This document shows, in pieces, positions 18,331 to 56,709 of a stretch of DNA of 64,000 nt. Made by a program: the position numbers and the translations under genes. The notes below the pieces were generated by a model, which saw nothing but the letters and a program-made list of their open reading frames with translations, was not told where the DNA came from and searched no databases. The stretch comes from an uncultured Oscillospiraceae bacterium (GTDB lineage Bacteria > Bacillota > Clostridia > Oscillospirales > Oscillospiraceae): assembly GCA_944386055.1 (NCBI GenBank), contig CALWZP010000001.1, positions 1 through 64,000 on the forward strand, in the 5' to 3' direction. Position 1 is the stretch's first letter. Every line of letters starts with the position of its first letter.

Positions 18331-18359
18331 CACCCCCCTCTCCCCTCCTGCATAGGATG
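18331..18359 (+). promoter_or_regulatory. Sigma-K-like (mother-cell) promoter of the collagen-like gene
   Basis: CACC at 18331-18334 matches the sigma-K -35 core (mACm). Sixteen bp later comes CATAGGATG (18351-18359), which fits CATAnnnTA except for the last base. CATAGGATGA recurs before the gene at 25379. A 10-bp stem CCCCGGCGGG/CCCGCCGGGG lies at 18383-18408, between promoter and ribosome site. Assignment rests on consensus match and the nature of the gene. Confidence 0.5.
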
Positions 18360-18427
18360 AAATGCAGCATCAGACCCACTCTCCCCGGCGGGGTCTGTCC
18401 CGCCGGGGTTTCAAGAAGGAGAATGTT

Positions 18428-18762
18428 ATGCATCGTTATCAATGTTGCAATTCCGGATCCAATTCCAACTCCACTTCTTCCTCGGCCAGTTCCGCACGCA
18501 GCGATCTGGCCAACGCGCCCACCTGCATCTACCGGCCCATGCCCGGCTGCATGCCCATCTGCCCGCCCCCCTATCCGTCCCCCTGCCCGTCCATGACGGG
18601 CCCCACGGGGCCCCAGGGGATCCCCGGGCCTGACGGCGCCACGGGTCCCACAGGGCCGCAGGGCATCCCAGGTCCGGCCGGACCCACCGGACCCACCGGG
18701 GCCACCGGACCGGCCGGACCGGCCGGCGCCGCCGGAGCGGTTGGCCCCACGGGACCCACCGG
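18428..18762 (+). CDS. Collagen-like (BclA-type) spore-surface protein, N-terminal part, interrupted
   Basis: AAGGAG lies 7 bp before the ATG. The N-terminus is Cys-, Ser- and Asn-rich ([14 protein letters not shown]), then a Pro/Cys linker, then Gly-X-Y repeats ([19 protein letters not shown] and so on), typical of exosporium or spore-coat glycoproteins. At 18763 the collagen pattern stops and the frame runs on meaninglessly to 19180 inside an integrated element. The missing part continues at 22589-23499 in the same frame. Precise joining at CCACCGG gives 413 codons including stop. Confidence 0.85.
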
Positions 18763-18806
18763 GACATTCCGCTTGAGACAAATTTACCCGTCGGGCAAAA
18801 TTTTTC

Positions 18807-18837
18807 TTGACTTGGAGTACACTCCAAAGAGTATACT
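18807..18837 (+). promoter_or_regulatory. MerR-type promoter of the ECF/aldo-keto reductase operon
   Basis: TTGACT (18807-18812) and TATACT (18832-18837) are separated by 19 bp, the overlong spacing of MerR-activated promoters. The spacer carries the dyad TTGGAGT-AC-ACTCCAA (18812-18827), the usual MerR operator layout. I find no merR gene in the window, so the activator would act from elsewhere. Confidence 0.8.
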
Positions 18838-18914
18838 GAACTGCGTTCTCCCCCGCCCCCACAGTGCGGGAGAGAACATGTCTGAGACAAATCCACACAA
18901 AGGAGACCTGATCC

Positions 18915-19520
18915 ATGTCCTCATCTTCCACCCGGAAGCAGAAGCTGGTCACGCTGGTGCTGGCCGCCATGTTCCTGGCCATCGGCATCGTGCTGCCCTT
19001 CTTCACCGGCCAGATCCCCCAGATCGGCAGCATGCTGCTGCCCATGCACATCCCCGTGCTGCTGTGCGGGCTGATCTGCGGCTGGCGGTACGGCGCCCTG
19101 GTGGGCTTCGTCCTGCCCCTGGTGCGTTCCCTCTGGCTTGGGATGCCCCCCTTTTTCACCGCCATTGCCATGGCCTTTGAGCTGGCGGCCTACGGCGGCA
19201 TCGTGGGGGCGCTGTATGCCCGCTCCCGCTGGAAATGCATTGTGGCCCTGTACCGCTGCCTGCTCATCGCCATGGTGGGCGGCCGTCTGGTGTGGGGCGC
19301 GGTGCGGCTGATGCTCACCGGCGTCACCGGCGACGCCTTCACCTGGCAGCTGTTCCTCAGCGGCGCCCTGTTCACCGCCATCCCCGGCATCCTGCTGCAG
19401 CTGGCGGTGATCCCCGCCATCATGGTGGCGCTGGACCGCACCGGCCTTGTGACCTTCTCCCGCCGGCATTCCAAGGCCCCCGCCGTGGCCTCCGTCCACA
19501 CCGATTTGAAAGGAGACTGA
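18915..19520 (+). CDS. ECF transporter S component (substrate-binding membrane subunit)
   Basis: The 201-residue protein has about six hydrophobic segments (for example [17 protein letters not shown]) and the ECF S-component hallmark around [18 protein letters not shown], where the substrate pocket forms. S components bind vitamins or metals and share a common energising module, which is not encoded here. AAGGAGA lies upstream of the ATG. It is followed after 5 bp by the aldo/keto reductase, so the two form an operon under the MerR-type promoter. The substrate cannot be assigned. Confidence 0.9.
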
Positions 19521-19525
19521 TTTTC

Positions 19526-20656
19526 ATGATCTACAAAGAGTTTCAGGGGCTGAAGCTCTCCGCCCTGGGCATGGGCTGTATGCGCCTGCCCGTCCTCGAC
19601 GGGGACGACGCCCGCATCGACGAGTCCGCCGCCGCCGAGATGGTGGATCTGGCCATGGCCTCCGGCGTCAACTACTATGACACCGCCTGGGGCTATCACG
19701 ACGGCAATTCCGAGCTGGTTCTGGGCCGCGCCCTGGCCAAGTATCCCCGGGAGAGCTTCTATCTGGCGGACAAGTTCCCCGGCTATGACCTGTCCAATAT
19801 GGACAAGGTGGAGGAGATCTTTGAGAAGCAGCTGGAAAAATGCCAGGTGGACCACTTTGACTTCTATCTCTTCCACAATGTGTGCGAGATGAACATCGAC
19901 GCCTATCTGGATCCCAAATACGGCATCTATGACTACCTGATGGAACAGAAGAAAAACGGCCGCATCCGTCACCTGGGCTTCTCCTGCCACGGCGCCCTGC
20001 CCGTGCTCCGGCGCTTTCTGGAGGCCTACGGCAGGGACATGGAGTTCTGTCAGCTGCAGGTGAACTACATCGACTGGGCCTTCCAGGATGACAAGGAAAA
20101 GGTCGCGCTGCTGGAGCAGTATCACATCCCCGTCTGGGTGATGGAGCCCCTGCGGGGCGGGCGGCTGGCCCGGCTCAGTGAGGCGGAGGCCGCCCCGCTG
20201 AAGGAGATGCGCCCCGACGAGACCATTCCCGCCTGGGCCTTCCGCTTTCTGCAGAGCCTGCCCCAGGTGGTGGTGACCCTGTCCGGCATGTCCGACCTGG
20301 AGCAGATGAAGGCCAACCTGGCCACCTTCGAGACCGAGCGGCCGCTCGCTGAAACGGAGATGGACAGGCTGCTCCAGCTGGCCGGCGGCATGGTCAGCGA
20401 GAGCGCCCTGCCCTGCACCGCCTGTCACTACTGCACCTCCCACTGTCCCCAGGGGCTGGACATCCCCGGCCTGCTGGCCCTGTACAATGAGCACGCCTTC
20501 ACCGGCGGCGGCTTTATCGCCCCCATGGCGCTCTCCGCCCTGCCCCAGGACAAGTGGCCCAGCGCCTGTATCGGCTGCGGCAGCTGCGAGGCGGTCTGTC
20601 CCCAGCAGCTGAAGATCGCCGACGCCATGGCGGCCTTCTCCAAAATGCTCGGCTGA
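19526..20656 (+). CDS. Aldo/keto reductase with C-terminal ferredoxin-type [4Fe-4S] domain
   Basis: The 376-residue protein has the TIM-barrel aldo/keto reductase catalytic tetrad Asp52, Tyr57, Lys83 and His117, followed from about residue 295 by two cysteine clusters, CTACHYCTSHCPQ and CIGCGSCEAVCPQ, that would hold iron-sulfur centres. This fused form is common in anaerobic Firmicutes. AAGGAG precedes the ATG. MerR-family regulators often control such reductases, consistent with the promoter at 18807. The substrate is unknown. Confidence 0.93.
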   Translation: MIYKEFQGLKLSALGMGCMRLPVLDGDDARIDESAAAEMVDLAMASGVNYYDTAWGYHDGNSELVLGRALAKYPRESFYLADKFPGYDLSNMDKVEEIFEKQLEKCQVDHFDFYLFHNVCEMNIDAYLDPKYGIYDYLMEQKKNGRIRHLGFSCHGALPVLRRFLEAYGRDMEFCQLQVNYIDWAFQDDKEKVALLEQYHIPVWVMEPLRGGRLARLSEAEAAPLKEMRPDETIPAWAFRFLQSLPQVVVTLSGMSDLEQMKANLATFETERPLAETEMDRLLQLAGGMVSESALPCTACHYCTSHCPQGLDIPGLLALYNEHAFTGGGFIAPMALSALPQDKWPSACIGCGSCEAVCPQQLKIADAMAAFSKMLG

Positions 20657-20683
20657 CCTTCTCCTTCTCCTGTTCCCTCTCTT

Positions 20684-20717
20684 CGGCGGCATCGCTTTGG
20701 CGGTGCCGCCGTTTTTT
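20684..20717 (+). terminator. Intrinsic terminator after the aldo/keto reductase gene
   Basis: A 12-bp stem (CGGCGGCATCGC pairing with GCGGTGCCGCCG, loop TTTG) is followed by six T (20712-20717). It separates the cargo operon from the recombinase operon. Confidence 0.92.
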
Positions 20718-20725
20718 CTGCGGAC

Positions 20726-20753
20726 ATATCCCCCCACAGACCTGCATAGGGGT
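20726..20753 (+). promoter_or_regulatory. Sigma-E-like (early mother-cell) promoter of the recombinase operon
   Basis: ATA (20726-20728) and CATAGGGGT (20745-20753) are separated by 16 bp, the sigma-E geometry (ATA, 16 bp, CATAnnnT). It follows directly after a terminator and lies 30 bp before the 57-aa gene, so a promoter is needed here. The match is partial; no better sigma-A promoter is visible in this gap. Confidence 0.45.
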
Positions 20754-20785: not shown

Positions 20786-20959
20786 ATGACAGATACACAC
20801 AGGCAGAACACGGCGGGCGGAGGCGGCGATGCGCCGCCTCGCCTCACCTTTGACCCCGGCGGCCCCACGCTGAAGCAGGCGTTGACCCGCTGTCTGCTGG
20901 CGCTGCGGGACGGTGCGGCCGCGCCCCATCCCGCCGGCCGGAAGGAGAAGGCCCCTTGA
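20786..20959 (+). CDS. 57-aa protein coupled to the recombinase; candidate directionality factor
   Basis: GGAGGGAG lies 6 bp before the ATG. The protein (start MTDTHRQNTAGGGG, core TFDPGGPTLKQALTRC) has a Gly-rich N-terminus, one probable helix and a basic tail. I recognise no family. Its stop overlaps the TTG start of the recombinase, so the two are made together. SprB, the excision factor of the SP-beta/spsM system, is also about 58 residues and encoded with its recombinase; the parallel is positional only. Confidence 0.72.
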   Translation: MTDTHRQNTAGGGGDAPPRLTFDPGGPTLKQALTRCLLALRDGAAAPHPAGRKEKAP

Positions 20960-22560
20960 CCCCCGCCGCGGCGGCCTCCTCCTCTCTCTGGCATGTGGCC
21001 CTTTACATCCGCCTGTCCCGGGAGGACGGCAACGACGAAAGCCTCAGCGTCACCAACCAGCGCAAGATCCTGCACGAGTATCTGGAGCATAGCTTTTCCG
21101 AGCCTTATCTCCTGGTAGGAGAGTACATCGACGACGGCGCCACGGGAACCGACGACGAGCGGCCCGGCTTTCAGCTCCTGCTCTCCGACATCCGCCGGGG
21201 CGCGGTGGACTGCGTGATGTGCAAGACCCTGTCCCGGGCCTTCCGCAACTACGCCGACCAGGGCTATTTTCTGGAGGAGTTCTTCCCCCGCCACCGCACC
21301 CGGTTCATCGCCTTGAGCGGTCCCCGGGTGGACAGCTTTCTGGATCCGGATGCGGTAAACGGGTATGAGATCCCCATCAGCGGGATCATCAACGACCGGT
21401 ATGCCGGGCGCACCTCCCTGGATGTGCGCCGCACCCTGGACACCAAGCGCCGGCGGGGAGAGTTCATCGGGGCCTTTGCCCCCTACGGCTATCAGAAGGA
21501 CCCGGCGGACCACAGCCGGCTGGCGGAAGATCCCTCTGCCGCCCGGGTGGTCCGGGACATCTTCCACTGGTATGTCCATGAGGGGCTGAGCAAGCAGGGT
21601 ATCGCCCGCCGGCTGAACCAGCTGGGCGTGCCCAACCCCGCCCACTACAAGCGGCGGTGCGGCCTGCGCTATTTCCATCCCCACGCCGGGGAGAACGACG
21701 GGCTGTGGTCCCCCAGAACGGTGTCCTATATTCTGGACAACCCGGTGTACGCCGGCGACCTGGTGCAGGGGCGGCAGCGGGTGGTGAGCTATAAGGTCCA
21801 CGACCGGGTGTCCGTTCCGCCGTCGGAGTGGTTCGTGGTCCCGGACGCCCACCCGCCGCTGGTCTCCCGGGCGCTGTTTGCGCTGGCCCGGGAACGCGCC
21901 GCCCGCACAGTCCGGGCCGCTCCAGGCGCCGACAGCGTCCATCTCTTTGCCGGGGCGCTGTTCTGTGCCGGCTGCGGCAAGGCCATGGGGCTGAAGTCCG
22001 TCCAGGGAGGACGGTACCGCTACTATGTCTGCCGGACCCACCGGGAAAAGGGAGGCTGCAGTTCCCGGCATCTCCGCGCCGACGCGGTGGAACAGGCGGT
22101 GCTGGACGCCATCCGCTCCCAGATCGCACGGCTCCCCGAAACGGAGATCGCCGCGGTGGCGGAAGCTGTCCGGGCCGCGCCCTGCCGTCGGGACGGACCT
22201 GCTGGGCGGGAGACGCTGCGGCGGGAGAACGCCCGACAGGCCACGCGGCTGCAGAGCGCACTGGATGGACTCTATCTGGACTGGCGGCAGGGCCTGCTGA
22301 CCCAGGAGGATTTTTCCCGCCTCAGAAGGCGGTTGGAGGGACAGCTGGACCGTCTGCGCGCGGCCTCCATCCCACCGGAGACGGAGGCCTCATGTTCCCC
22401 CGCTGTGGAGGATTTTCTCACCCAGGGCAATTTCCTCCGGCTGGAGCGGGGCGTGGTAGCCGAGCTGATCGACCGGATCCTGGTGGAGGAGGACGGCGGA
22501 CTGGAGATCCGCTTCCGCTTTGCCGACCCCGGCGCTCTTTCTTCGGACGGTTCCTGTTAA
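20956..22560 (+). CDS. Large serine recombinase
   Basis: The 534-residue protein has the resolvase-type catalytic domain with the nucleophile Ser21 in YIRLSRED, a Recombinase domain (about 190-300, with QGIARRLNQLGVPNP and ILDNPVYAGDLVQG), a zinc ribbon (LFCAGCGKAM with CRTHREKGGC) and a C-terminal coiled region. It starts with TTG, with AAGGAGAAGG 8 bp upstream; the frame has no better ATG. These enzymes integrate and, with a directionality factor, excise DNA. It ends 28 bp from the right junction with the collagen gene. Confidence 0.95.
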   Translation: MTPAAAASSSLWHVALYIRLSREDGNDESLSVTNQRKILHEYLEHSFSEPYLLVGEYIDDGATGTDDERPGFQLLLSDIRRGAVDCVMCKTLSRAFRNYADQGYFLEEFFPRHRTRFIALSGPRVDSFLDPDAVNGYEIPISGIINDRYAGRTSLDVRRTLDTKRRRGEFIGAFAPYGYQKDPADHSRLAEDPSAARVVRDIFHWYVHEGLSKQGIARRLNQLGVPNPAHYKRRCGLRYFHPHAGENDGLWSPRTVSYILDNPVYAGDLVQGRQRVVSYKVHDRVSVPPSEWFVVPDAHPPLVSRALFALARERAARTVRAAPGADSVHLFAGALFCAGCGKAMGLKSVQGGRYRYYVCRTHREKGGCSSRHLRADAVEQAVLDAIRSQIARLPETEIAAVAEAVRAAPCRRDGPAGRETLRRENARQATRLQSALDGLYLDWRQGLLTQEDFSRLRRRLEGQLDRLRAASIPPETEASCSPAVEDFLTQGNFLRLERGVVAELIDRILVEEDGGLEIRFRFADPGALSSDGSC

Positions 22561-22588: not shown

Positions 22589-23499
22589 CCACCGGCCCCA
22601 CCGGCCCTGCCGGACCCGCTGGTCCCACCGGCCCCACCGGCGCTGCGGGAGCGGGGCTGGACACCGTCACACAGTTCGTCCCCGACACCCCTTACGCCCG
22701 AGGGACCATGCTCTATTACAACGGCGCCCTCTATCAGGTGAATCAGGATAACCCCTCCGGGACACCGGGCACCTCGCCCGATTTCACCCTGGTCACCGTG
22801 ACCGGGCCCACCGGACCCACCGGTGCCACTGGTGCTGCAGGTGCCACCGGAGCGGAGGGACCCACCGGGCCTACCGGACCCACTGGTCCTGCCGGTGCCG
22901 CCGGGCCCACCGGACCCACCGGCCCCACGGGAGCGGAAGGACCCACCGGCCCCACCGGACCTACCGGGCCTGCCGGCGCGACCGGGCCCACCGGGGCTGC
23001 GGGTGCCACCGGAGCGGAGGGCCCCACCGGACCCACCGGACCCGCCGGTGCTGCGGGCGCCACCGGGCCCACCGGACCCACCGGTGCGCCCCCCACGCTG
23101 AACGCCCTGTACGCCACCAACACCGGCTCCCAGACTCTGGCCACCACCGGGGATGACGCCACCTTCGACACCAACCAGGTGGAGCAGGGCACCGCCATCA
23201 CCCACACCGCCAGCACTCCCACCTTCACCCTGGTGGACGCCGGCGTGTACCGCATCACCTATTCCGTGGTGGCCACCAACACCTCCAGCACCGGCACCGT
23301 GGGGGTGGAGCTGGAGGCCAACAGTGCCTCCGTTCCCGGCAGCAAAAGTTCTGCCACCATCTCCACCACCAGTAACCTGGCCACCCTGGCCAAATCGGTG
23401 CTGGTCAACGCTGGTGCCAGTACGACGGTGACTCTGACCTCTACAGAGGACAATGTCACCCTGACCGAGGCGGCCATCGTCATTCAGAAGCTGAACTGA
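22589..23499 (+). CDS. Collagen-like spore-surface protein, C-terminal part
   Basis: This is the downstream half of the gene beginning at 18428. It has no start signals of its own. In frame it reads a short collagen stretch ([12 protein letters not shown]), a globular insert ([15 protein letters not shown] region), a longer run of [10 protein letters not shown]-type repeats, and a ~135-residue C-terminal domain (from [14 protein letters not shown]) like the trimeric jelly-roll end of BclA-type exosporium proteins. The stop is at 23497-23499. Without excision it has no evident route to translation with its N-terminus. Confidence 0.85.
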
Positions 23500-45679: not shown

Positions 45680-46405
45680 ATGCATATGGGATGGACGATC
45701 CGTCTGGCCGCCGCGCTGGACCGGCTGCTGGCCCGGCTGGGCTTGGCACTGCCGGGAAACATCATGTACATCGGGGGGAGCGATGTGCTGCCCGCCCCTC
45801 TCTCCCGGGAAGAGGAGGCCGCCCTCATCGCCCGGCTGGCCCAGGGGGACGAGTCCGCCCGCCCCGCCCTCATCGAGCACAACCTCCGGCTGGTGGTGTA
45901 CATCGCCCGCCGGTTCGAGAACACGGGGATCAACATTGAGGACCTGATCTCCATCGGCACCATCGGACTGATCAAGGCGGTGGGCACCTTCCAGCCGGCC
46001 AAAAACATCAAGCTGGCCACCTACGCCTCCCGGTGCATCGAAAACGAGATCCTGATGCACCTGCGCAAGACCTCCTCCCAGAAGTCGGAGGTCTCCTTCG
46101 ACGAGCCGCTGAACACCGATTGGGACGGCAACGAGCTGCTGCTGTCCGACATTCTGGGCACCGAGAGCGACCTGGTGATGAAGCCTCTGGAGGCGGATGT
46201 GGACCGGCAGCTGCTGTGGACCGCGCTGGGCAAGCTGCCGGACCGGGAGCGCCGTATCATCTCCATGCGGTTCGGCCTGGGTGGACGGCGGGAGTACACC
46301 CAGAAGGAGGTGGCCGACCGCATGGGCATCTCCCAGTCCTACATCTCCCGGCTGGAGAAGCGTATCATCGCCCGGCTGAAAAAGGAGATCCTCAAGCTGT
46401 ACTGA
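45680..46405 (+). CDS. sigE: Sporulation sigma factor SigE precursor
   Basis: The 241-residue sigma-70-family factor directs early mother-cell transcription. It has an amphipathic pro-sequence of about 29 residues before YIGGSDVLP, region 2 ([33 protein letters not shown]) and region 4 with [19 protein letters not shown] precedes the ATG. It would drive genes with ATA-16-CATA promoters such as the candidate at 20726. Confidence 0.97.
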
Positions 46406-54196: not shown

Positions 54197-55420
54197 TCAC
54201 TCCCGGCCGTAGAGGCTGAAGAACTTGTCGTGGATCACCTGGACGGCGCGGTCGGCGTCGCAGTCGTCCACCAGGACGGAGACCTTGATCTCGCTGGTGG
54301 AGATCATATTGATGTTGATCCCCGCGTTGAACAGCGCCTCGAACATGGTGGCGGCCACGCCGGGGTTGTTGATCATGCCCGCGCCCACGATGGACACCTT
54401 GGCGATCTGGTCGGTGACCTCGATGCTGTCGAACTTGATGATGTCCCGGTTGTCCTCCAGGATGCGCTGAGCCAGCTCCATATCCGCCTTCTTCACGGTG
54501 AAGCTGATGTCCTTGCTGCCCTCGCGGCCGATGGACTGGAGGATGATATCCACATTCACCCGGTTCCGGGCAAGCAGGGAGAAGATCTTAAAGGCAATGC
54601 CCGGCTCGTTGGCCAGCCCCACCAGGGCCAGGCGGGCGATGTCCTTGTCCTTGGCCACACCGCTGACTTGCGACTTTTCCATCTTTTTCACGACCTCCTT
54701 GACTTTTGTCCCCGGCTTGCCGGAGAAGCTGGAGAGCACCTCCAGATTCACATTATACCGCTTGGCCATCTCCACCGAGCGGTTGTGGAGCACCTGCGCC
54801 CCCAGAGATGCCAGCTCCAGCATCTCGTCGTAAGTAATCTCCTCCAGCTTTCGGGCGCCGGTGACATAGCGCGGGTCTGCGGTATACACCCCGTCCACAT
54901 CGGTGAAGATCTGGCACAGGTCGGCGTGGAGGGCCGCGGCCAGGGCCACCGCCGAGGTGTCCGACCCACCCCGGCCCAGCGTGGTGATGTCGTCATACTT
55001 GTTCAGCCCCTGGAACCCGGCCACGATGACGATCTTGTTCTTGTCCAGTTCCGCCTGGATACGCTCGGTGTTGATGTTCTTGATGCGGGCGGAGCCATAG
55101 CCGGAATTGGTGTGCATCCCCGCCTGCCAGCCGGTCAGCGAGATCACCTGGTATCCCATGGCCTCGATGGCCATGGCGCACAGGGCGATGGAGATCTGCT
55201 CCCCGGTGGACAGCAGCATATCCATCTCCCGCTTGGAGCCCTTGGGGTTGATCTCCTCCGCCTTGGCGATGAGGTCGTCGGTGGTGTCCCCCTGGGCGGA
55301 CAGGACCACCACCATGCTGTTCCCCTTGCGGTACTGTTCGGTGATGATGCGGGCCACATTGCGGATGCGGTCGGCATCCGCCACCGAGGTCCCGCCGAAT
55401 TTCTGTACGATCAATGACAT
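54197..55420 (-). CDS. lysC: Aspartate kinase
   Basis: The first enzyme of the aspartate family (Lys, Thr, Met). The 407-residue protein begins with KFGGTSVADADRI, has the kinase core motifs GRGGSDTSAVALA and TDVDGVYTADPR, and two C-terminal ACT domains (from about 265) for feedback control. AGGGGGAAA precedes the ATG. It is third in the ACT-hom-lysC run on the minus strand. Confidence 0.96.
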   Translation of the reverse strand: MSLIVQKFGGTSVADADRIRNVARIITEQYRKGNSMVVVLSAQGDTTDDLIAKAEEINPKGSKREMDMLLSTGEQISIALCAMAIEAMGYQVISLTGWQAGMHTNSGYGSARIKNINTERIQAELDKNKIVIVAGFQGLNKYDDITTLGRGGSDTSAVALAAALHADLCQIFTDVDGVYTADPRYVTGARKLEEITYDEMLELASLGAQVLHNRSVEMAKRYNVNLEVLSSFSGKPGTKVKEVVKKMEKSQVSGVAKDKDIARLALVGLANEPGIAFKIFSLLARNRVNVDIILQSIGREGSKDISFTVKKADMELAQRILEDNRDIIKFDSIEVTDQIAKVSIVGAGMINNPGVAATMFEALFNAGININMISTSEIKVSVLVDDCDADRAVQVIHDKFFSLYGRE

Positions 55421-55494
55421 GTTGTTTCCCCCTGAAACGGATTTGGGCGGCGCGTGGGCGGCCGGTCCATCCTATGCCGCCGAAGTCTGGGCGG

Positions 55495-56709
55495 TCAATG
55501 ATACATCCGGATCACGCTGTCCGCCGAAAGGCCCTCCAGCGCCCGGTCCAGCTCCGGCCGGGTGTACTGTCTGCCGGTGAGGAAGGCCGTCTCCCCCTCC
55601 GTGGCGCCGGGCCGGGCCAGAAACTGCACCTCGCCGAGGCGGGCGCGCACCTCCTCCGCCGGCGCGTGGAGCCGGACATACCACCGGTCGCTCAGGGTAT
55701 CCGGGGAGAAGGTGATGTCCTCCCCGCCGGGGCCCCAGTCCAGATACTTGCTCTGCCCCATGCTGCGGGCGGCGTCGATGACATCCGCCACCACGGCGCT
55801 GGCGGTGGGCAGCTTGCCCGCTCCCCGGCCGTAGAACATCACCTCGCCGATGGCGTTGCCCGTCACCGAGATGGCGTTGAACACATCCTCCACCCCGGCC
55901 AGAGGCTCCTCCCCGTCCAGCAGGTGGGGCGCCACATAGGCGCAGATCTTCCCGTCTTCCCGCCGGATGGCGCGGCCCAGCAGCTTGATCTTCCGCCCGC
56001 AGGAGTCGGCATAGGCCACATCCTCCAGGGTGATGCCGGTGATCCCCTCGGTGGGGACCTGGCTGGGATAGATATGCTGGCCAAAGGCCAGGGCGGCCAG
56101 GATGCAGATCTTCCGGCAGGCGTCCTGCCCCTGGATATCCGCGGAGGGGTCCCGCTCGGCATACCCCTTCTCCTGGGCCTCCTTCAGCGCCGCATCGAAG
56201 GACAGCCCGCCCCGGATCATCCGGGTGAGGATGTAGTTGGTGGTCCCGTTGAGGATGCCGCACACCTCGGTGAGCTCGTTGGCCGCCAGGCAGGAGGTCA
56301 GGGGCCGCAGGATGGGGATGCCGCCCCCCACGCTGGCCTCGAAGAGATAACTGACCTTCTTCTCCTTGGCCAGCTGCAGCAGGTCATAGCCGTGGGTGGC
56401 CACCAGCTCCTTGTTGGAGGACACCACGCTCTTCCCCGCCTGCAGAGCCCGGCGGGTGAAGTCCAGCGCCACGGTGGCGCCGCCGATGGTCTCCACCACC
56501 ACCGAAACCTCCGGGTCGTTCTCGATCACCGAAAAGTCCTTGACAAACTTGTCGGCATAAGGGCTGTCCGGGAAGTCCCGCACATCCAGGATGTACTTCA
56601 GCCGGATCTCATCCCGCACCCGCCTGTCGATGCTCTCCTGGTTGGTGGTCAGCACCTCGGCCACGCCGGAGCCCACCACGCCGAAGCCCAAAATCGCCAC
56701 ATAGATCAT
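55495..56709 (-). CDS. hom: Homoserine dehydrogenase
   Basis: Hom reduces aspartate semialdehyde to homoserine for threonine and methionine. The 404-residue protein has the NAD(P) motif ILGFGVVGSGVAEV, the catalytic region GILNGTTNYIL and AERDPSADIQGQDA, and a short C-terminal domain (about 345-404) less typical than the usual ACT domain. AGAGGTGA precedes the ATG. It lies 29 bp after the ACT gene. Confidence 0.95.
   Translation of the reverse strand: MIYVAILGFGVVGSGVAEVLTTNQESIDRRVRDEIRLKYILDVRDFPDSPYADKFVKDFSVIENDPEVSVVVETIGGATVALDFTRRALQAGKSVVSSNKELVATHGYDLLQLAKEKKVSYLFEASVGGGIPILRPLTSCLAANELTEVCGILNGTTNYILTRMIRGGLSFDAALKEAQEKGYAERDPSADIQGQDACRKICILAALAFGQHIYPSQVPTEGITGITLEDVAYADSCGRKIKLLGRAIRREDGKICAYVAPHLLDGEEPLAGVEDVFNAISVTGNAIGEVMFYGRGAGKLPTASAVVADVIDAARSMGQSKYLDWGPGGEDITFSPDTLSDRWYVRLHAPAEEVRARLGEVQFLARPGATEGETAFLTGRQYTRPELDRALEGLSADSVIRMYH

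Follow-up and report, generated by a model that had tools for sequence, protein, structure and literature searches.

A collagen-like gene of the BclA type is split by a 3.8-kb element encoding its own site-specific serine recombinase in the draft genome (G000; 2.3 Mb, 57 contigs) of an uncultured Oscillospiraceae bacterium, whose family includes such Oscillospiraceae as Flavonifractor. The locus lies in a 64-kb stretch of DNA, here called the window, to which all coordinates given without a contig refer. This is probably a domesticated skin-type element in a spore-surface gene, with excision timed by sigma-E and followed by sigma-K transcription. In the proposed order of events, sigma-E RNA polymerase in the sporulating mother cell would transcribe an operon of a 57-aa protein and the recombinase from 20726-20753, and the recombinase would recombine attL (18756) with attR (22589), possibly under the direction of the 57-aa protein, deleting about 3.83 kb and rejoining the Gly-X-Y reading frame. 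The rebuilt gene would later be transcribed by sigma-K from 18331-18359, and the element would stay intact in the forespore and so be inherited. A first-pass annotation had proposed this order, with the recombinase early and the rebuilt gene late in the mother cell, and the promoter classes described below agree with it.

The 5' part of the collagen-like gene (18428-18762, +; MHRYQCC..., PF01391) begins with an ATG at 18428 preceded by the Shine-Dalgarno sequence AAGGAG, encodes Gly-Pro-Thr repeats, and loses sense at about 18762. The 3' part (22589-23499, +) contains further repeats and a BclA C-terminal domain (23110-23496; PF18573). PF01391 and PF18573 both scored above cut-off in profile searches, giving the BclA-like order of a Gly-X-Y region followed by BclA_C. 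The cores of attL (18756-18762, +) and attR (22589-22595, +) are direct CCACCGG repeats, and joining them in silico deletes 3,833 bp and preserves the Gly-X-Y frame (...GAVGPTGPT^GPTGPAG...), as the direct core repeats of sporulation intervening elements do. The interrupted gene stands behind a promoter of mother-cell type and, on the evidence of that promoter and of its family, probably functions in sporulation; spoIVA and sigE are both found in G000. A hairpin in the 5'-UTR (18383-18408, +; CCCCGGCGGG-gtctgt-CCCGCCGGGG) directly precedes the Shine-Dalgarno sequence. It is strong in G000, stable at the same place with another sequence in the congener G001, and weak in a second congener, G002 (z -0.96).

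In G001 the element, the order of its cargo, and its position are the same as in G000. The G001 gene is spread over two contigs with an overlap of about 140 bp containing two mismatches, which indicates that it is contiguous. Its att core is GCCACCGGGGCAG (13 bp), flanked by arms that are mutually inverted repeats, as expected of a serine-recombinase attP, and excision restores the frame there as in the window. In G002 the orthologous gene, beside glpK, is split by a different element of about 9.4 kb (two contigs, 27 bp overlap), so the orthologous collagen gene is interrupted in all three genomes. A comparison of G000 with G001 yields a dN/dS of 0.15 over the entire 3' half, 0.23 in BclA_C, and 0.45 in the 5' part ahead of the repeats; the two parts of the recombinase give 0.32 and 0.49. 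Purifying selection thus acts on a 3' half that has neither promoter nor start of its own, which would not be expected unless this half is rejoined.

Two metabolic genes make up the cargo, and no phage genes were seen in the element, whose G+C content (0.653) equals that of the host (0.652). The cargo encodes an ECF transporter substrate-binding component (18915-19520, +; PF12822) and an aldo/keto reductase with a 4Fe-4S domain (19526-20656, +; PF00248, Fer4). Ahead of these genes, TTGACT-19 bp-TATACT over the dyad CTTGGAGTACACTCCAAAG (18807-18837, +) forms a promoter that we take to be of the MerR type, and a similar stretch occurs in G001. The element thus seems to carry vegetatively regulated cargo, which the mother cell would discard. 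A strong intrinsic terminator (20684-20717, +), with a counterpart in G001, separates the cargo from the recombinase operon.

The large serine recombinase (20956-22560, +) has a TTG start overlapping the stop of the 57-aa gene, contains Resolvase, Recombinase, and zinc-ribbon domains (PF00239, PF07508, PF13408), and retains the invariant catalytic Ser21 in YIRLS. PDB chains of YokA are among its closest solved relatives. The 57-aa protein (20786-20959, +) is at most a short relative of DUF6870 (PF21757): a Pfam search gave no match, but it is 42% identical to its G001 counterpart, is alignable to the C-terminal half of DUF6870, and occupies the position that DUF6870 holds ahead of the recombinase in other elements. 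The PF21757 profile misses the short DUF6870-like proteins of both G000 and G001, which we assigned by hand. By analogy with SprB (PMC4191935), we would guess that the 57-aa protein is a directionality factor.

The predicted promoter of the collagen-like gene (18331-18359, +) lies where the first-pass annotation had placed it, with (C)ACC at 18331-18334, 16 bp, and CATAGGATG at 18351-18359. ACC-N16-CATAGNATG has two matches in the 64-kb window against 0.01 expected, and ACC-N15/16-GCATAGGATG is kept in G000, G001, and G002. Relative to the sigma-K form AC + CATANNNTA, both AC and CATAGGAT are present with the final A replaced by G, and this too is conserved in the three genomes. Collagen promoters of the GCATAGGATG type recur in other genera, at L050 (CATAGGATGG), L045 (CATACAATAC), and L087, where the gene behind the promoter has an 85-triplet open frame. 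Among 19 collagen genes, ACC-N15-17-CATA was found in nine (0.22 expected), AC-N16-18-CATA in 13 (0.84 expected), and the ATA form in one (0.38 expected). Among recombinase operons the preference is reversed, with 13 ATA and one ACC (Fisher p = 7e-5).

The -35 element discriminates between the two mother-cell factors, ATA going with sigma-E and AC with sigma-K, matched by Gln and Arg in region 4 (PMC3789822). The organism's own sigma-E (45680-46405; GISQSYISR) and sigma-K (GISRSYVSR) carry the matching Gln and Arg. Because the -10 elements are alike, only the -35 element, AC, would assign the collagen-like gene to sigma-K rather than sigma-E; that it is AC or ACC and not ATA, in congeners and other genera alike, argues for sigma-K, as first suggested. 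A scheme in which excision is programmed but sigma-E, alone or together with sigma-K, transcribes the collagen gene is rather unlikely; there would then be no early and late order, and timing would come from recombination alone. Such a scheme would suit a -10 element common to sigma-E and sigma-K, and the identical GCATAGGATG stands ahead of cotJAB in G000, an operon that is under sigma-E in B. subtilis. It is difficult to reconcile with the prevalence of AC over ATA at the -35 position of the 19 collagen promoters, and in C. difficile the genes bclA1-3 are sigma-K dependent.

A further suggestion had been to scan the whole genome to see whether the -10 motif marks coat genes. GCATAGGATG occurs nine times in the genome against once for a reversed control, and one site precedes a cotJA-cotJB gene (Pfam-confirmed); the motif thus marks some spore genes, but the remaining sites are not all assignable to such genes. 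One ACC-N16-GCATAGGATG site (55468-55495, -) lies before an aspartokinase gene (54197-55420, -) and is probably a mother-cell promoter, which could perhaps serve the supply of dipicolinate precursor.

The sigK gene is itself split. In G000, G001, and G003 it stops at profile position 213 of 227, directly after SRSYVSR. The G000 parts lie at C10:76006-76635 (L206, L242) and C36:2700-2790 (L070), with the 3' break after the SRSYVSR codons, and the gene is also split in G001 (L243, L257) and G003 (L258). The missing end (YVSRIEKKALKKLEEAMGQ) was located on a different contig of G000, where it follows a second serine recombinase at a distance of about 100 bp on the downstream side; a CTATGTATCCCGC is shared. 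G000 therefore appears to hold a second, skin-type element in sigK, at an unusual place. With sigK split, sigma-K activity would await a second excision, which fits a late collagen gene. Upstream of the recombinase of this sigK element CATAGAATC is present, and ATA at the right distance is absent.

Returning to the element in the collagen-like gene, the predicted promoter of its recombinase operon (20726-20753, +) comprises ATA at 20726-20728, 16 bp, and CATAGGGGT at 20745-20753, as first annotated, and the ATG of the 57-aa gene follows at 20786. ATA-N16-CATA has one match on both strands of the 64-kb window against 0.80 expected, so the single match was rejected as proof; the original caveat, that the motifs are short and contain mismatches, is justified as long as this locus is taken singly, and only comparison answers it. 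Within the 130 bp upstream, the match to ATA-N15-17-CATA is reached in 0.3% of dinucleotide shuffles, and the -10 element CATAGGGGT deviates from the usual CATANNNT. The G001 site is ACATAT-N15-GCATAG, in which the geometry is kept and the spacer has diverged.

The same -35, -10, and spacing are found upstream of the organism's own spoIVA (GCATAT-...-CATATGGTGG, ATA-N16 geometry), a gene whose start we read by hand after automatic start choice had missed it. Automatic scoring of spoIVA in relatives found ATA-N16-CATA in 14 of 27, with the spacing invariably 16. In both B. subtilis and C. difficile, spoIVA is a sigma-E gene. Conservation of ATA-N16-CATA, together with the contrast between element classes described next, favors, as far as sequence goes, a mother-cell sigma factor for the recombinase. 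The footprint against congeners, the own spoIVA promoter, and the class contrast all agree with the proposal that sigma-E in the mother cell would read this operon, and the preference of recombinase operons for ATA and of collagen genes for ACC fits the pairing of sigma-E with the recombinase and sigma-K with the collagen gene.

For this comparison, we gathered about 100 DUF6870-recombinase loci from 400 genomes of the family and scored a 130-bp stretch ahead of the small gene. Of the elements beside spore-surface genes, 13 of 15 have ATA-N15-17-CATA, against two of 64 elsewhere (Fisher p=4e-11); the counts are not independent, the recombinases being related, and they depend on automatic calling of collagen-type targets, by which some flanks were misfiled. 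The dinucleotide-shuffle expectation for the spore-gene elements is 0.35 of 15. All 15 have a collagen-like flank except two, which are flanked by a gene for a Cys-rich small protein. The two motif-bearing exceptions elsewhere, L096 and L149, each continue with a second recombinase gene and have no identifiable target. ATA-N16-CATA is also found in L050 (Flavonifractor An100) and L067 (G002), two collagen-gene elements which contain no recognised DUF6870 gene and stand outside the 13 of 15. The collagen-gene elements L049, L055, and L147 are without the motif, and the rule thus has exceptions. In a tree of 84 recombinases, spore-gene targeting must have arisen twice; both clades contain the motif, which shared ancestry by itself therefore does not fully explain.

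A second sample, drawn from other genomes (Lachnospiraceae, Oscillospiraceae, Agathobaculum, and others), comprised 80 named loci. By automatic count, the motif was present in 20 of 27 collagen-flanked elements and 15 of 39 others (p = 0.004), against five of 66 in a control window further upstream. One reason for the weaker contrast here is that short stretches of collagen were classed as "other": when the flanks were inspected, at least eight of the 15 others with the motif (L261, L269, L292, L298, L301, L308, L321, L334) proved to have a collagen-like or Cys-rich target, as did the motif-less L287, L291, L310, and L339. Direct repeats at the junctions permit in-frame joining in six further elements, the cores of which are uncertain, collagen codons being repetitive. 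Sister recombinases interrupt collagen-like genes in many gut Clostridia, and culturable relatives with this arrangement include Flavonifractor sp. An100 (L050/L330), Agathobaculum sp. Marseille-P7918 (L307), and Clostridium sp. ASF356 (L298). In L049, L057, L042, and L044 the recombinase is directed against the collagen gene, and either orientation of the element is possible.

Other targets also occur in this recombinase family. In L041, L043, and L269, elements with sigma-E-type promoters lie inside a gene for a Cys-rich small protein (EAVDPLVLGMKLVEPC...) without a Pfam match, probably an unrecognised spore-surface protein. The DUF6870-recombinase elements L058 (G151) and L065 (G082) have no sigma-E-type promoter and end inside a gene with a 3' part that is, by eye, spoVAD-like. 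If that target is forespore-specific, excision would be inherited; ordinary insertion is the more likely explanation.

The same family includes many ordinary mobile elements, and the element in the window could be one of them, using collagen codon repeats as attachment sites in a dead or expendable gene with coincidental promoters. Collagen repeats would supply many identical sites, and after any precise insertion the frame would be restored on excision. We nevertheless consider this improbable: purifying selection acts on a 3' half that has no promoter (dN/dS 0.15), one element has been retained at one position in two species, the sigma-E-type promoter is specific to spore-gene elements (13/15 versus 2/64), and the G+C content is that of the host. 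Highly improbable is a growth-phase on/off switch, in which the element would be removed, and perhaps reinserted, in a few growing cells to vary the spore surface; serine recombinases are capable of switching, and short att sites have alternative partners among the collagen repeats, but the recombinase stands behind a mother-cell type promoter, dividing cells would lose the excised circle, and the repeats are direct, so that deletion is expected and an inversion switch was rejected.

As programmed excision, the arrangement strongly resembles, on sequence, the elements skin, SP-beta, gin, and yin, and its collagen-like target would be new. Like skin in sigK of B. subtilis and C. difficile, it encodes a serine recombinase whose deletion event in the mother cell would rebuild a sporulation gene, and in B. 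subtilis the skin recombinase gene is likewise turned on in sporulation. It differs from skin in its target, a collagen-like surface gene instead of sigK, and in being a 3.8-kb element with two metabolic genes; in C. difficile, moreover, the skin recombinase is not under sigma-E and timing comes from a separate directionality factor. SP-beta in spsM (PMC4191935) shares a serine recombinase (SprA) with a small partner (SprB), a mother-cell promoter on the small protein, and a rebuilt spore-envelope gene. There, however, SprA is constitutive and timing is set by SprB, encoded elsewhere in the prophage (PMC4191935), whereas here a single sigma-E-type promoter precedes an operon that contains both the recombinase and the small protein. 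The gin element in gerE (PMC5595907) similarly has no phage genes, a serine recombinase with an extra factor, and a 9-bp core repeat in coding sequence, but it is a 28.6-kb Bacillus element with three recombinases and a regulator gene as target. The yin element in yabG of C. botulinum (PMC10747680) targets a spore-coat-related gene in Clostridia, but is prophage-like and has another target. In the literature searched, which included few subscription papers and no bioRxiv preprints, we found no description of a collagen-like gene as the target of an excision element, nor of DUF6870.

Known sporulation rearrangements form a short list of single cases, mainly from Bacillus and C. difficile. In the present loci that logic, a sigma-E-type promoter for the recombinase, a sigma-K-type promoter for the target, and an in-frame att core, would recur repeatedly across Oscillospiraceae, Lachnospiraceae, and other groups, the preferred site being a collagen-like spore-surface gene. 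Somewhat speculatively, these loci may represent a large and hitherto overlooked group of elements for programmed DNA elimination, present in gut Clostridia and attaching at collagen Gly-X-Y codon repeats; since every copy of the repeat is in frame, an element of either orientation could occupy many positions without cost. Under the same tentative proposal, sigma-E promoters would have been gained along with spore-gene targeting at least twice, and, if it is true, the choice of repeat copy at excision could also vary collagen length. The arrangement would provide a sequence signature for detecting programmed excision in genomes, and the spore-gene and other elements of one recombinase family would offer a natural contrast for how mobile elements join a developmental programme.
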